From NCBI GenBank assembly GCA_018814505.1, contig JAHIZQ010000056.1, positions 1-10,910 on the forward strand: a DNA stretch of 10,910 nucleotides. Direction: 5' to 3'. Below the pieces are notes generated by a model. That model worked only from the letters and a program-made list of their open reading frames with translations, was not told where the DNA came from and ran no database searches. Shown piece by piece: positions 6,316 to 10,910 of this stretch. Both the position numbers and the translations under genes were made by a program. Origin of the DNA: Candidatus Omnitrophota bacterium. Lineage in GTDB: Bacteria > Omnitrophota > Gorgyraeia > Tantalellales > Tantalellaceae. The first letter of the stretch is position 1. Every line of letters starts with the position of its first letter.

Positions 6316-6689
6316 AACCGGAAATAAGAGATATTGAAAAAAAATTTATACGATTAGATATGCCTAAAATAAATATTGGGGATACCGTTGATGTTCACTA
6401 TAGGATACAGGAGGAAAACAAAACTCGTGTTCAGGTTTTTAGCGGTATTGTTATCGGAGAAAAAGGTGGCGGTATGAAAAGAACGTTTACTGTGCGCCGG
6501 ATATCTTATGGTGAAGGAGTAGAACGTATTTTTCCAGTTAACTCCCCGGCAATAGAAAAAATAGTTGTCAAAAAGCACGGCAAAGTTCGTCGCGCGAAAC
6601 TTTATTATTTACGCCAAAAAGAAGGAAAAGGCGCCACAAAAGTTAAGGAAAAAATTGTCCAAAAGAAAAAAACCAAAACTTCCGAATAA
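6312..6689 (+). CDS. rplS: 50S ribosomal protein L19
   Basis: L19 (bL19) sits at the interface of the ribosomal subunits. The 125-residue product has the family's I-N-I-G-D-T-V-D-V segment (20-28), R-V-Q-V-F-S-G-I-V-I, F-T-V-R-R-I-S-Y-G-E-G-V-E-R-I-F-P, and the signature K-V-R-R-A-K-L-Y-Y-L-R. The C-terminal 20 residues are almost entirely Lys, Thr and Glu, a basic tail beyond the globular fold. Translation starts at ATG 6312, overlapping the trmD stop by 4 bases, with AGGAGG at 6302-6307, so it is probably coupled to trmD. Its 3' end contains the start of rnhB in another frame. Identification is secure. Confidence 0.97.
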   Translation: MKPEIRDIEKKFIRLDMPKINIGDTVDVHYRIQEENKTRVQVFSGIVIGEKGGGMKRTFTVRRISYGEGVERIFPVNSPAIEKIVVKKHGKVRRAKLYYLRQKEGKGATKVKEKIVQKKKTKTSE

Positions 6690-7314
6690 GGAACAGGACA
6701 CATTTTTTTACGAAAAGAAGGCTTTCAGTGCCGGGTATAAACGTGTAGCGGGAATAGATGAAGCCGGCAGGGGGCCTTTGGCCGGGCCCGTTGTCGCAGG
6801 TGCGGTTAGAGTTTGTGATGGTTCGTTTACTGAACGGATAGATGACTCTAAAAAGCTTAGTGTAAGGCAAAGAGAAAAAGCGTTTGTTGATATCTTGAAG
6901 CGGTGTGATGTTGGGATTGGGTGTGTTGACGTAGAGGAAGTTGACAGGGTAAACATTTATAATGCGACTTTACTCGCAATGCGAAAAGCAATTGATGATC
7001 TTAATGATGAGCCAGACTATTTATTAATTGACGGTAAAATGAATATCGATATTCATCAGCCGCGGACTTGTTTAATCGGAGGTGAAAGCCTTAGTGTTTC
7101 TATTGCGTGCGCTTCAATTATTGCAAAAGTTTATAGGGACAGGTTAATGATCGAGTTAGATTTGGAATATCCTCAATATGGTTTTAAAAAACATAAAGGG
7201 TATGGAACTCGTGAACATATAGAAGCTATTCGGAAACATGGGCTTTGTAGTGTTCACCGTAAAACTTTTGGTCCATTTGGAAGCCGTCGAAAAATAAAAA
7301 AACCGGTATTATAA
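6655..7314 (+). CDS. rnhB: Ribonuclease HII
   Basis: RNase HII cleaves the RNA strand of RNA-DNA hybrids and starts removal of single ribonucleotides from DNA. With the start chosen here the protein has 219 residues. It carries G-I-D35-E36-A-G-R-G-P (catalytic pair), D-S-K-K-L at 63-67, L-L-I-D126-G, S-I-A-C-A-S-I-I-A-K-V-Y-R-D at 149-162 and Y-G-F-K-K-H-K-G-Y-G-T near the C-terminus. The fourth metal-binding residue, normally Asp in a G-D-S/A context, is Glu144 here (G-G-E-S). The TTG at 6655 is preferred because AAGGAA (6645-6650) lies just upstream; no ATG or GTG occurs in frame before the D-E-A-G-R-G-P motif. An earlier TTG at 6565 would only add sequence overlapping rplS. It overlaps rplS by 35 bases and ends the housekeeping block. 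Confidence 0.9.
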   Translation: MSKRKKPKLPNKEQDTFFYEKKAFSAGYKRVAGIDEAGRGPLAGPVVAGAVRVCDGSFTERIDDSKKLSVRQREKAFVDILKRCDVGIGCVDVEEVDRVNIYNATLLAMRKAIDDLNDEPDYLLIDGKMNIDIHQPRTCLIGGESLSVSIACASIIAKVYRDRLMIELDLEYPQYGFKKHKGYGTREHIEAIRKHGLCSVHRKTFGPFGSRRKIKKPVL

Positions 7315-7315
7315 T
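7287..7315 (+). promoter_or_regulatory. Possible promoter for the fhs operon
   Basis: TCGAAA (7287-7292) and a perfect TATAAT (7310-7315) are spaced by 17 bases, overlapping the rnhB stop codon. Transcription would start near 7322 and give an fhs leader of about 194 bases that includes all the structured elements described below. The -35 match is only four of six. The same bases form the terminator-like palindrome at 7304-7321, so the two readings compete. Confidence 0.4.
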
Positions 7316-7328
7316 ATGCCGTTTATTT
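7301..7328 (+). terminator. Possible intrinsic terminator at the end of rnhB
   Basis: CGGTAT (7304-7309) pairs with ATGCCG (7316-7321), including one G-U pair, around a 6-base loop. It is preceded by an A-run and followed by TTTATTT. The stem is short and overlaps the rnhB stop codon. It would end the rpsP-to-rnhB transcript, but it coincides with the possible fhs promoter. Confidence 0.45.
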
Positions 7329-7335
7329 GTGTGTG

Positions 7336-7450
7336 AATAGAGAATATTTTACGATTATATTTAAGTCAGAAAGTAAAGCTGAAATTCGAACAGTACGTAT
7401 TTTGTGAAAATTATTCTCTATTGATTGTTTGACGGTGCTTTTCTGACTTA
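7336..7450 (+). promoter_or_regulatory. Structured fhs leader: two interleaved 11-bp inverted repeats
   Basis: AATAGAGAATA (7336-7346) is the exact reverse complement of 7412-7422. TAAGTCAGAAA (7362-7372) is the exact reverse complement of 7440-7450, and this second stem can extend by three more pairs beyond a 4-base bulge (7377-7379 with 7437-7439). The order A-B-A'-B' means the stems either form an H-type pseudoknot, with connecting loops of 15, 39 and 17 bases, or exclude each other. The element sits in the only long gene-free stretch before the one-carbon operon, directly followed by a terminator-like hairpin. I do not recognise it as a known riboswitch class. The pairing is read directly; an RNA regulatory role is inferred. 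Confidence 0.55.
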
Positions 7451-7492
7451 CTGCCGCAATTCGGGTTCAAGTAATTGTGGTAGTCTTTTCTC
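7450..7492 (+). terminator. Terminator-like hairpin upstream of the fhs ribosome binding site
   Basis: Bases 7450-7461 (ACTGCCGCAATT) pair with 7473-7484 over 12 positions including two G-U pairs, with an 11-base loop, followed by CTTTTCTC. It ends 12 bases before the AAGGAG of fhs. It shares base 7450 with the last pair of the preceding stem, so the two structures abut. This is the expected position of an attenuator that decides whether fhs is transcribed. Without testing, a purely structural hairpin is also possible. Confidence 0.55.
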
Positions 7493-7515
7493 GGAAAAAA
7501 GGAGATGATGTTATT

Positions 7516-9219
7516 ATGGGATACGGCATTGATCAAAGAATAGCTTCCACAATTAAATTAAAAGACATCAGTGAAATTGCAAGAAAAATCGGAATTGCCG
7601 ATAAGTATTTGACGAAATATGGCAAATATATTGCTAAAATTTCCGTGGATTCGTTAAATGAAATACTTAAGAAACGAAAAAATGGAAAGATGATTTTGGT
7701 TACGTCAATTACGCCGACACATTTGGGCGAAGGCAAGACAGTCAATACCATAGGGTTGGCAATGGCTTTAAACAAACTTGGGAAAAAAGCCATTTCCTGT
7801 ATTAGGCAGTCCTCTTTTGGGCCTTTTTTTGGAATTAAGGGAGGCGCTACAGGGGGAGGATGCGCTCAAATATTACCGGCCGAAGAGGTTACTATGGGGT
7901 TGACGGGAGACTCGTTTGCTGTAAGCAACGCGCAGAATCTTTGTTCCGCTTTTTTAGATAACAGTCTTTATTGGGGGAATCCCCTCAATATCGATAAAGG
8001 TAACATTTCTTGCACCCGAGTTCTTGATGTAAGCGATAGAGCTTTACGTAATCTCGCAATTGGAGGCGGAGGAAAATTTCACGGTGTAAATCGTAAGACA
8101 AGTGTTGAAATTACACAGGCCGGGGAATGCATGGGGGTATTGTCTCTTTCGGAAAATTTGAAAGATTTAAGGCAAAGGTTGGGGCGGATTGTTGTAGGGT
8201 TTACAATGAGTGGAAAGCCTGTTACGGCGGAAGATTTAAAAGTTGCCGGAGCCATGAGTGCGATTATGAAAAACGCGCTTAATCCCAACCTCGTACAGAC
8301 CAATGAGAATACGCCATGTTTTGTACATACGGGTTCTTTTGCGAATGTTTCACATGGTTCGAGTTCTGTAATAGCGGATAAATTGGCACTAAAACTTGCT
8401 GATTATACTGTTACCGAAAGCGGGTTTGGCGCTGATTTAGGTGCAGAAAAATTTATTGATATTAAATGCCGGAAATCAGGAATAAAACCGGATGTGATTG
8501 TAATAAACTGTTCTGTGCGGGCGTTAAAAGTTCATAGCGGAGATTTTGTTTTTAAAGGAAATTCAATGCCGGCTGAGCTTAAAAAAGAAAACCTGTCAGC
8601 CGTGGACAGAGGTTGTTCTAATTTGGAAAAACAGGTAGAAAACCTGAAGATGTTTGGTGTGCCCATAGTTGTATGCATAAATAAATTTGATTCGGATTCA
8701 CAAAAAGAATTGGACATAGTGGTTAAACGCGCTGAAGTTTTGAATGTTGCGGGCGTTGCGATAAGTGAAGTTTATAAAATGGGGAGTAAAGGTGCGGTTG
8801 AATTGGCGCGGGCAGTTATTAAAGCCGCAGGGGAAGAAGCATCTTTACGATATCTTTATCCCGTTGATATGAGTATTCGCGGTAAGATTGAACGTATCGC
8901 TAAATCTATGTATGGTGCGAATGAAGTCAAATATTCGGATTTAGCTTCAGCGAATATAGGGAGAATAGAAAAAAATAAATTTGAGATGTTTCCCGTTTGT
9001 ATGGCTAAGGCGCATCTTTCGCTTTCGAATAATCCTTTAAAAAAAGGCAGGCCGCGAGGATTTAAATTAAGTATAGAAGACGTTACTTTAGCGGCCGGAG
9101 CAGGATATATCGTAGTAAAATGCGAAGGTGTTAATGTAATGCCGGGTTTGCCGAAAAAACCCAGGGGCATAAATGTAGATGTTGATGTTAAAACCGGAAT
9201 GATTAAGGGGTTGTTCTAA
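7516..9219 (+). CDS. fhs: Formate-tetrahydrofolate ligase (divergent)
   Basis: Fhs uses ATP to join formate to tetrahydrofolate, giving 10-formyl-THF, the entry step of the Wood-Ljungdahl methyl branch. The 567-residue length fits the family (about 555-560). Conserved parts are T-P-T-H-L-G-E-G-K-T (66-75, P-loop), G-I-K-G-G-A (106-111), N-P-N-L-V-Q-T (256-262), E-S-G-F-G-A-D-L-G-A-E-K-F (301-313), F-G-V-P-I-V-V (380-386) and the C-terminal P-G-L-P. Several near-invariant motifs differ: R-Q-S-S-F-G-P for R-E-P-S-L-G-P (97-103), P-A-E-E-V-T-M-G-L-T-G-D for the usual P-M-E-D-I-N-L-H-F-T-G-D (121-132), A-G-E-C-M-G for A-S-E-I-M-A (202-207), and S-E-V-Y for S-E-V-W (417-420). The ATG at 7516 follows AAGGAGATGAT (7498-7508), an extended Shine-Dalgarno match. 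An earlier in-frame GTG at 7477 lies inside the upstream hairpin and is disfavoured. Confidence 0.93.
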   Translation: MGYGIDQRIASTIKLKDISEIARKIGIADKYLTKYGKYIAKISVDSLNEILKKRKNGKMILVTSITPTHLGEGKTVNTIGLAMALNKLGKKAISCIRQSSFGPFFGIKGGATGGGCAQILPAEEVTMGLTGDSFAVSNAQNLCSAFLDNSLYWGNPLNIDKGNISCTRVLDVSDRALRNLAIGGGGKFHGVNRKTSVEITQAGECMGVLSLSENLKDLRQRLGRIVVGFTMSGKPVTAEDLKVAGAMSAIMKNALNPNLVQTNENTPCFVHTGSFANVSHGSSSVIADKLALKLADYTVTESGFGADLGAEKFIDIKCRKSGIKPDVIVINCSVRALKVHSGDFVFKGNSMPAELKKENLSAVDRGCSNLEKQVENLKMFGVPIVVCINKFDSDSQKELDIVVKRAEVLNVAGVAISEVYKMGSKGAVELARAVIKAAGEEASLRYLYPVDMSIRGKIERIAKSMYGANEVKYSDLASANIGRIEKNKFEMFPVCMAKAHLSLSNNPLKKGRPRGFKLSIEDVTLAAGAGYIVVKCEGVNVMPGLPKKPRGINVDVDVKTGMIKGLF

Positions 9220-9221
9220 TA

Positions 9222-9812
9222 ATGGCGAAAGAATATCTGAAAACTACAATTGAGGAATATTTGACGGATATTGCTTCCCGGAGCGCAGTACCAGGAGGAG
9301 GAAGCGCTACCGCGCTTACCGCCGCGACAGCCGCGGGGCTAAATCTTATGGTAATGGCATATAGCAAAAAAAATGAAGTACGCGACAATGAAAAGCTAGA
9401 TGCACTTTACGCCGTTCAGAAAAAAGGTTTTAAAAAATTGCTGACTCTCATAGATAAAGATTGCGAAGTTTTCCGCGCGCTTATGGATAAATTAGCTAGT
9501 AAATCTTCTGCTGAACAGGAATACATAAACGCGGCACAAGTACCGATGGAAATATGCAGAGAAAGCGCAAATTGCCTACGAGCGGTAAGTTATCTTATAG
9601 AAAACGGAAATAAGAATTTGTTGACAGACGTTGGGTGCGCCGCGCATATGTTTAAAGCATCTTTTTATTCTGCGAAACTTAACGTGGAAATTAACCTTAA
9701 ACATATAAAAAATGACGCGCTTTGCAAAAATATTAGGTCAGAAATTAAGCAAATTGAAGAAGAAATAAACCGAATTTGCGATAATGCGTACGTTTTTTTA
9801 GCGAAAACGTAA
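9222..9812 (+). CDS. fchA: Methenyltetrahydrofolate cyclohydrolase (cyclodeaminase family)
   Basis: FchA interconverts 10-formyl-THF and 5,10-methenyl-THF and belongs to the formiminotransferase-cyclodeaminase C-terminal family, unrelated to FolD. The 196-residue, mostly helical protein has the glycine motif S-A-V-P-G-G-G-S-A-T-A-L at 21-32, a hydrophobic helix after it with M-V-M-A at 43-46, and a D-V-G-C-A-A segment at 135-140, followed by A-K-L-N-V-E-I-N-L, typical of the family. The C-terminal helix is charged. It starts 2 bases after the fhs stop, with AAGGGG (9205-9210) inside fhs as its binding site. Lying between fhs and a folD that lacks the cyclohydrolase lysine, it is the probable sole provider of the cyclohydrolase step in this operon. 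A role in serine or glycine one-carbon metabolism instead of acetogenesis remains possible. Confidence 0.9.
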   Translation: MAKEYLKTTIEEYLTDIASRSAVPGGGSATALTAATAAGLNLMVMAYSKKNEVRDNEKLDALYAVQKKGFKKLLTLIDKDCEVFRALMDKLASKSSAEQEYINAAQVPMEICRESANCLRAVSYLIENGNKNLLTDVGCAAHMFKASFYSAKLNVEINLKHIKNDALCKNIRSEIKQIEEEINRICDNAYVFLAKT

Positions 9813-9826
9813 ATTGTGGAGGCAGA

Positions 9827-10669
9827 ATGGCAAAATGTGTTAACGGTAGAGCGATAGCAAAAAGCAGTAATGACAAGGTAAGGGATGAAATACAATTGCG
9901 CCGTGCTAAAAAAGGGCGGTCGCCTAAATTGGTATCGCTTTCCGTGGGGTACAGCGAAGACGCGGAAATCTATATGAATATGCAAAAAAAAGTTTCAGAT
10001 TATGTTGGGGTTGAGTTTGTTTCACAAAAGCTTTCTGCGGATACGTCTCAGGATGAACTAATTGAACAGATTAAAAAATTAAACTTAGATAGCACGGTTA
10101 CTTCCATTATAGTACAAAAACCTTTACCGGAAAATATTGACCACAACATAGCGGTTTCAAGTATATTGCCTGAAAAGGACGCTGAAGGGATTACTCCATA
10201 CAATCTTGGCAGGATTTTCAGGAAAGAAGCGGATATTGTTCCCTGTACGCCGGGCGCTGTAATGAAAATATTGAAAAGTTGTAATGTTGATTTATACGGA
10301 AAAGAAGTTGTGATTATCGGTCATTCCGCGATAGTCGGAAAACCTCTAAGTCTTATGATGCTTAATGAAACAGCGACTGTTACGGTGTGTCATGTTGGAA
10401 CGGCGGAAAAAGGAAACATTATCGCACATACGCGTAAAGCTGACATTTTGATCGTCGCGGTGGGTAAAGCCGCCATGGTAAAACCCGATTGGATTAAAGA
10501 GGGAGCTGTTGTTATAGATGTTGGAATAAATAAGGTTGAGGATAAAATTCAGGGCGATGTTGATTTTTTGGAAACTGAAAAAAAAGCATCAATTATTACA
10601 CCGGTTCCGGGTGGTGTAGGTCCGGTTACCGTGTCTATACTTATGAGGAACGTTTTAAGAGCATATTAG
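9827..10669 (+). CDS. folD: Methylene-THF dehydrogenase (FolD), probably without cyclohydrolase activity
   Basis: FolD normally oxidises methylene-THF to methenyl-THF with NAD(P)+ and hydrolyses that to 10-formyl-THF; in the Wood-Ljungdahl direction it runs in reverse. The 280-residue product has V-Q97-K-P-L-P in the folate site, P-E-K-D118-A-E-G, V-P-C-T-P-G at 138-143, I-I-G-H-S-A-I-V-G-K-P at 163-173 (dinucleotide site, where G-R-S is usual), V-V-I-D-V-G at 228-233 and P-V-P-G-G-V-G-P at 259-266. The catalytic signature Y-x-x-x-K is changed: Tyr49 is kept but the residue four further on is Gln53, aligning without gaps to Lys54 of E. coli and Lys56 of human enzyme. The family knowledge is that this Lys is required for the cyclohydrolase half-reaction. 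The ATG at 9827 follows TGGAGG (9817-9822), 14 bases after the fchA stop. Confidence 0.95.
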   Translation: MAKCVNGRAIAKSSNDKVRDEIQLRRAKKGRSPKLVSLSVGYSEDAEIYMNMQKKVSDYVGVEFVSQKLSADTSQDELIEQIKKLNLDSTVTSIIVQKPLPENIDHNIAVSSILPEKDAEGITPYNLGRIFRKEADIVPCTPGAVMKILKSCNVDLYGKEVVIIGHSAIVGKPLSLMMLNETATVTVCHVGTAEKGNIIAHTRKADILIVAVGKAAMVKPDWIKEGAVVIDVGINKVEDKIQGDVDFLETEKKASIITPVPGGVGPVTVSILMRNVLRAY

Positions 10670-10677
10670 GAATCAAA

Positions 10678-10910
10678 ATGTCACAATTTAAAAAAGCACT
10701 TGAAAACGGAAAGTTTGTTATAACAACCGAGATAGGGCCGCCGAAAGGTGTGTCAATGGAATCGGTTTTTCGAGAACTAGAATGCGTTAAAGGTAGAGTT
10801 GACGGAGTGAATGTCACTGACCAGCAAAGTTCGATTATGCGTTTGGGATCAATAGCCGCTAGCAGGTTTCTTAATGATCACGGATATGAGGCAATATGTC
10901 AAATGACCTG
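10678..10910 (+). CDS. metF: Methylenetetrahydrofolate reductase, 5' part (runs off the window)
   Basis: Only the first 77 codons are present. The reading frame from ATG 10678 gives M-S-Q-F-K-K-A-L-E-N-G-K-F-V-I-T-T-E-I-G-P-P-K-G, then G-R-V-D-G-V-N-V-T-D-Q-Q-S-S-I-M-R-L and I-C-Q-M-T at the edge. This matches the N-terminus of MetF-type reductases found in anaerobes with the Wood-Ljungdahl pathway, where the T-x-E-I-G-P-P-K-G strand opens the TIM barrel and V-N-V-T-D-x-Q-S lines the folate/flavin site. The enzyme reduces methylene-THF to methyl-THF, the next step after FolD. AGGA at 10668-10671, overlapping the folD stop, is 6 bases upstream. The C-terminal half, and whether a MetV-like partner follows, cannot be seen. 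Confidence 0.88.
   Translation, partial: MSQFKKALENGKFVITTEIGPPKGVSMESVFRELECVKGRVDGVNVTDQQSSIMRLGSIAASRFLNDHGYEAICQMT

Follow-up and report, generated by a model that had tools for sequence, protein, structure and literature searches.

Interlocked inverted repeats between rnhB and fhs of an Omnitrophota bacterium: a possible lineage-specific leader RNA

The stretch of DNA analysed here (the window, 10,910 nucleotides) comes from an uncultured Omnitrophota bacterium, the assembly of which comprises 1,576,494 bases in 316 contigs and is 87.8% complete; judged by rnhB, its closest named relatives are Candidatus Omnitrophota, including Candidatus Aadella gelida. The ribonuclease HII gene, rnhB, is followed by fhs, the gene for formate-tetrahydrofolate ligase, and then by a cyclodeaminase-family gene, folD and a metF-like gene that leaves the window (Table 1). 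The stop codon of rnhB ends at 7314 and the ATG of fhs starts at 7516, and the 201-nt gap between them is the leader considered in this work. Regarding its composition, the G+C content of 32.8% is not raised, the mean for 42 intergenic regions being 34.9%; as for its coding content, it has only open reading frames of 20-41 amino acids, apart from the upstream extension of fhs itself.

Table 1. Coordinates of genes and sequence features in and around the rnhB-fhs leader
Feature	Position	Strand	Remarks
rnhB, ribonuclease HII, gene 5' of the leader	6565..7314	+	Pfam RNase_HII, 6.3e-35
Promoter-like site TCGAAA-17-TATAAT	7287..7315	+	10/12 matches
Arm A of stem S1	7336..7346	+	to 7350 with one mismatch
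Arm B of S2	7362..7372	+	perfect 11 bp with B'
5' arm of S3 (inner stem)	7386..7394	+	9 pairs with 7424-7432, including G-U; mean pair probability 0.985
Arm A' of S1	7412..7422	+	within the 7395-7423 loop of the S2/S3 hairpin
3' arm of S3	7424..7432	+	
Arm B' of S2	7440..7450	+	
Last hairpin	7450..7484	+	12 bp (7450-7461/7473-7484), two G-U pairs, 11-nt loop, -14.9 kcal/mol
U-rich tail CTTTTCTC	7485..7492	+	5 T in 8; weak U-tract
Ribosome binding site AGGAG	7500..7504	+	from sequence reading
fhs, formate-tetrahydrofolate ligase	7516..9219	+	Pfam FTHFS, 1.6e-221
Cyclodeaminase-family gene (FTCD_C)	9222..9812	+	downstream of fhs
folD	9827..10669	+	
metF-like gene, 5' part only	10678..10908	+	Pfam MTHFR, 1.4e-05; leaves the window

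The leader holds two perfect 11-bp inverted repeats in the interlocked order A-B-A'-B' (S1, formed by A and A', and S2, formed by B and B'), followed by a 12-bp hairpin and by the ribosome binding site of fhs; this arrangement had been described in a sequence-only reading of the window, and it is present as described. The arms of S1 can be extended to 14 paired positions of 15 (7336-7350/7408-7422). Base 7450 is common to B' and to the last hairpin, so that the two helices cannot both have their full length at the same time. The loop of the last hairpin (7462-7472) reads CGGGTTCAAGT, which we take to resemble the T-loop motif of tRNAs; no tRNA was predicted within the window.

As for the question of chance, dinucleotide shuffles of 7315-7515 were searched for perfect repeats of at least 11 bp with a span of up to 130 nt: one such repeat occurred in 56 of 10,000 shuffles and two in none of them, while the best interlocked pair in 20,000 shuffles had 9 bp and none reached 11 bp. 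The non-coding sequence of the source genome is itself rich in inverted repeats, with 33 of the same kind (at least 11 bp, span up to 130 nt) in 32.6 kb of sequence outside open frames in the sampled contigs and the window, and shuffles alone therefore exaggerate the significance. The real background consisted of 58 sampled stretches, 16 of which were entirely N, leaving 42 contigs and 331,541 usable bases, from which 3,249 windows of 201 nt were taken at a step of 100. The best interlocked pair had 7, 8, 9 or 10 bp in 414, 60, 5 and 1 of these, respectively, and 11 bp in none. The earlier claim of complementarity beyond chance is thus supported by both backgrounds. Extrapolating the tail of the distribution, about 0.3-0.6 interlocked cases of 11 bp would be expected per whole genome, a value that makes such a pair unusual at a named place and not impossible across the whole genome. 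It is possible, and we give this reading real weight, that the leader is ordinary A+T-rich intergenic sequence with an accidental complementarity that was noticed because much sequence was read, in which case the last hairpin would be at most a weak terminator, perhaps without any role. The tail extrapolation speaks for such an accident, as do the average G+C content and nested folding and the absence of the stretch from relatives of the family (see below); against it stand the failure of every shuffle and every real window to reach an 11-bp interlock, and the location of the pair in a leader and not in some random place.

In the best nested fold of the leader, S2 encloses S3 and is followed by the last hairpin, with mean pair probabilities of 0.84 for S2, 0.985 for S3 and 0.99 for the last hairpin; S1 has a pair probability of 0.003 in the nested ensemble, and forcing it gives -41.6 instead of -43.5 kcal/mol, 1.9 kcal/mol worse. 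When both A and A' are left free for S1, the remainder still folds, at -39.3 kcal/mol. Because A' lies in the loop of S3, S1 could be added as a pseudoknot without disrupting S2 or S3; the geometry would seem to allow the connectors that this requires, which measure 39 nt between A and S3, 17 nt between S3 and A', and 1 nt between A' and the 3' arm of S3. A walk along the transcript end in steps of 6 nt gave S1 as best for ends 7422-7440, and S2 and S3 from 7446 onward. The strength of the nested folding is ordinary: the z-score is -1.75 for 7322-7516 and -2.2 for 7315-7515, and the latter was matched or exceeded by 18 of the 84 strands of 42 intergenic regions. Since the S1 and the S2/S3 states both contain the last hairpin, it is not switched by them; no antiterminator was seen among the folds made of the leader. 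Sequestration of the ribosome site by pairing of 7439-7446 with 7491-7498 was rejected on a pair probability of 0.002, although most of these pairs are contained in the fold with S1 forced, which is worse by no more than 1.9 kcal/mol.

Regarding transcription signals, initiation from the promoter-like site, if it is one, would fall near 7322; the stretch 7000-7700 holds two promoter-like sites where shuffles have 2.9 on average, and the site alone is therefore no evidence. A small terminator-like hairpin lies at 7304-7321, immediately 3' of the end of rnhB or overlapping it, with the TATAAT box in its loop, and the end of the rnhB unit and the next promoter may overlap there. Terminator-like hairpins were surveyed at 273 sampled ends of open frames of at least 150 codons: hairpins with at least 6 T of 8 were found after 15 of the 273 ends versus 4 of 273 positions inside frames, and those with 5 T of 8, the number found after the last hairpin of the leader, after 23 versus 14. 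On these counts the last hairpin is close to background, and better terminators exist in this genome.

The sequence-only reading had recognized no known RNA class in the leader, and this agrees with Rfam 15, which gave no match in the window for any of its 4,227 families at the gathering score; up to an E-value of 5, the only match in 7280-7560 was the S15 leader, at 11 bits. Twenty fhs or rnhB loci from relatives likewise gave no match at the gathering score, and a control scan of 11 contigs of the source genome returned three tRNAs and no riboswitch. The THF and ZTP riboswitches control folate or purine genes and make use of pseudoknots; the leader resembles them in the type of gene and in the possible pseudoknot, and differs in that neither is matched in the window. 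The impression that no known class fits does not, nevertheless, settle the matter for this gene, for PMC11109978 reports the fhsA motif (WRC-63-1), which precedes fhs in Leptotrichia and combines a terminator-like hairpin with a possible pseudoknot. There it is ranked as a weak riboswitch candidate, with a folate as the speculated ligand, and 52 examples are given, seven from Leptotrichia and the others environmental (PMC11109978). By its description there, the fhsA motif is the published kind nearest to the leader: both lie 5' of fhs, directly upstream of it in the case of the leader, and in both a pseudoknot is possible and a first hairpin precedes a second one, which is terminator-like in the fhsA motif and may be so in the leader (PMC11109978). 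The second hairpin of the leader has 12 bp, with only 5 T in the next eight positions. The differences are that the proposed fhsA pseudoknot joins the terminator stem-loop with the preceding hairpin, while in the leader a 5' strand would pair with the first hairpin, in its loop, and that one comes from Leptotrichia and environmental DNA and the other from Omnitrophota; the comparison is one of descriptions, not of consensus sequences (PMC11109978). The shared gene, the hairpin before it and the possible pseudoknot would fit a genuine one-carbon riboswitch or attenuator, which might be a relative of the fhsA motif (PMC11109978); we consider it improbable, given the lack of Rfam matches in the window and in the 20 loci of relatives, the absence of the stretch from the testable family relatives, the weak U-tract and the lack of an antiterminator in the folds made. 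In the literature searched, no paper combined Omnitrophota and riboswitches.

As for conservation, rnhB lies directly upstream of fhs in all 17 relatives of the same family in which the start of fhs is readable, with gaps from -11 to 118 nt; three of these 17 starts were extrapolated from the match, and in the remaining one of the 18 other family genomes (G004) the sequence covers no more than the end of fhs. In further loci of the class, rnhB is upstream in 6 of 12, sometimes with intervening open frames. The fhs gene itself is 89% identical to that of a congener, an Omnitrophota MAG (P0002), and 77% to that of a JGI contig (P0003). A stretch like the leader occurs upstream of fhs in none of the 17 testable family relatives, all of them from other genera, the gaps being at most 118 nt versus 201 nt here. 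The sequence-only reading had named a lack of conservation at this place as an outcome that would refute it, and this is the outcome obtained, within those 17 relatives from other genera. In two of the relatives (G006 and G017), the rnhB/fhs junction carries other short repeats, namely GTAGGGGCAGGCCCCTGTGCCTGCCC and repeated CACGGG units, and the junction thus tolerates inserts.

Searches with the leader DNA gave a similar picture. Among 59 genomes, at E-values up to 0.001, it was found in its own genome only and there as a single copy, and it is part of none of the repeats of the sampled contigs; two short matches in its own genome had E-values of 0.1-0.2, and one of them (17 nt, contig 72) is coding-looking by eye. 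Up to an E-value of 1, matches were found in 16 of 19 family genomes, its own included, the foreign ones being 16-34 nt long and the best having an E-value of 0.0076. Across the phylum, at E-values up to 0.01, the DNA of 7315-7517 had matches of 21-57 nt in 17 of 284 other genomes versus about 3 expected, several of them over 7400-7432 (twice in G243, and in G231 and G158); this excess may be due, perhaps only in part, to the A+T-rich composition. Eleven matched places in 10 genomes were judged, by eye only; one of them (G252, 57 nt, 76%) could be where a gene for a secreted protein starts, and the idea that the leader might be a decayed gene start comes from this match.

Two covariance models were also used, R1 with S1 and the last hairpin and R2 with S2, S3 and the last hairpin; each was built from one sequence entered twice, which limits its reach, and in the phylum searches, including those with the leader DNA and with R3 (see below), few candidates were scored per genome, under stricter filters. 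R1 matched 4 of the 18 other family genomes at E-values up to 1, the best (G006, 0.0055) being a short repeated sequence by eye, and 5 of 284 other phylum genomes at E-values up to 0.05, versus 14 predicted by the E-values. R2 found no other genome in the family at E-values up to 1, with a second weak place in its own genome (0.63), and in the 285 phylum genomes only its own at E-values up to 0.1. The matches of R1 and R2 elsewhere are no more than chance, and there is no convincing structural homologue in the 19 family and 285 phylum genomes, the source genome counted in both.

The best foreign match of R1 (L199, in G162, a genome from the same class) turned out to belong to a dispersed intergenic element as one of its copies; the element has 31 matches in that genome at E-values up to 7e-10 (L199:1513-1610, L214-L242). 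In the copies read, the element is about 77-108 nt long, has two hairpins and mostly ends in TAGTAC and TAG; in appearance it is a mobile element or an RNA element. The loops of its two hairpins are complementary (TTAATTGTTAATA/TATTAACAATTAA), with 84.9% of the cells paired in 24 G162 copies; in the same copies, both hairpins have compensatory changes and 2 of the 13 loop-loop pairs are changed on both sides. In the whole structure the doubly changed pairs number six, a value that 58 of 500 shuffles also reached. A model of the element, R3, was built from 23 of 29 G162 stretches plus L199, six being omitted as partial, tandem or gapped; it matched in 12 of 285 phylum genomes at E-values up to 0.01 (L254-L265). 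Among 11 copies outside G162, the loop-loop match was 5-8 bp in nine and none in one, one being without a value, and these matches may be due to chance. Rfam gave no match at the gathering score in seven loci of the element or in L199.

The element and the leader share the interlocked order, the loop of one hairpin being complementary to that of the next in the G162 element; they differ in that the element is multicopy and has other arms, whereas the leader is single copy and has no significant R3 match. The L199 copy aligns with 7388-7438, and none of 2,000 shuffles aligned as well, before correction for the choice among 285 genomes. R3 had no match in the window at E-values up to 10 with default filters, its best unfiltered score there was 9.6 bits versus 8.3 on the opposite strand, and it found nothing at E-values up to 0.01 in the source genome or in 12 listed family members; the leader as a copy of the dispersed element was rejected on the window searches and the absence of copies from its own genome. 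A wider form of the idea is that the leader is a structured intergenic element, solitary or decayed, that was inserted at the rnhB/fhs junction and has no role in the control of fhs. The extra sequence, present in this lineage only among those checked, fits an insertion; so do the existence, in at least one other Omnitrophota genome, of a dispersed, interlocked two-hairpin element with compensatory pair changes and the fact that one of its copies is the best foreign R1 match and aligns with the leader. We nonetheless judge this unlikely in view of the R3 results in the window, the source genome and the 12 family members, and because the leader is single copy and in no repeat of the sampled contigs. 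As the G162 element is interlocked outside any fhs context, the A-B-A'-B' order alone is no evidence for a riboswitch.

On the whole, we tentatively prefer, and only weakly, the reading that the fhs operon has a lineage-specific 5' leader, acting in cis as a folded RNA. This reading is favoured by the 11-bp interlock that no shuffle and no genome window reached, by the location 3' of the rnhB stop and 5' of the ribosome binding site of fhs with a TATAAT box ending at 7315, by the high pair probabilities of S2, S3 and the last hairpin, by the order in which S1 precedes S2 and S3, and by the folding that persists with A and A' free. The lack of a homologue and of the stretch in the 17 family relatives, the ordinary nested folding and G+C content, the very low probability of S1 in the nested ensemble and the promoter count all disfavour it. 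The leader RNA is hardly ahead of the accident, with the solitary element, also a close rival, and then the one-carbon riboswitch behind. Of the earlier proposal, the structured leader keeps the backing of its excess complementarity and of the lack of an Rfam class; the sensor of folate, formate or another one-carbon signal with an attenuator has gained no positive evidence: the 17 relatives lack the stretch, no convincing structural homologue was found in the 19 family and 285 phylum genomes, the U-tract is weak, and the folds made show no antiterminator.

If the preferred leader RNA exists, transcription would be from the local promoter, an assumption of the proposal, and no ligand is proposed. 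According to the computed folds, S1 would form first, at transcript ends from 7422 to 7440; as B' emerges, S2 and S3 would replace S1, and A' would stay in a 29-nt loop. A could then pair with the looped A', giving a pseudoknot, with the 12-bp hairpin directly after it and then the ribosome binding site, and either this compact fold or the rearrangement from S1 to S2/S3 might set the level of synthesis, survival or translation of the fhs message. A more daring version, for which we see very little chance, is a narrowly distributed one-carbon control RNA of Omnitrophota in which the S1 pseudoknot would stack on the last hairpin next to the ribosome binding site and the switch between S1 first and S2/S3 would control fhs.

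In conclusion, a dispersed Omnitrophota element, that of G162, has interlocked inverted repeats as well, and this holds whether or not the leader is functional and calls for caution with the A-B-A'-B' order. If the leader is functional, it would be a further and separately arisen leader RNA on fhs, the gene through which formate enters the folate pool, and a leader RNA in Omnitrophota, a phylum for which the literature searched makes no mention of riboswitches.
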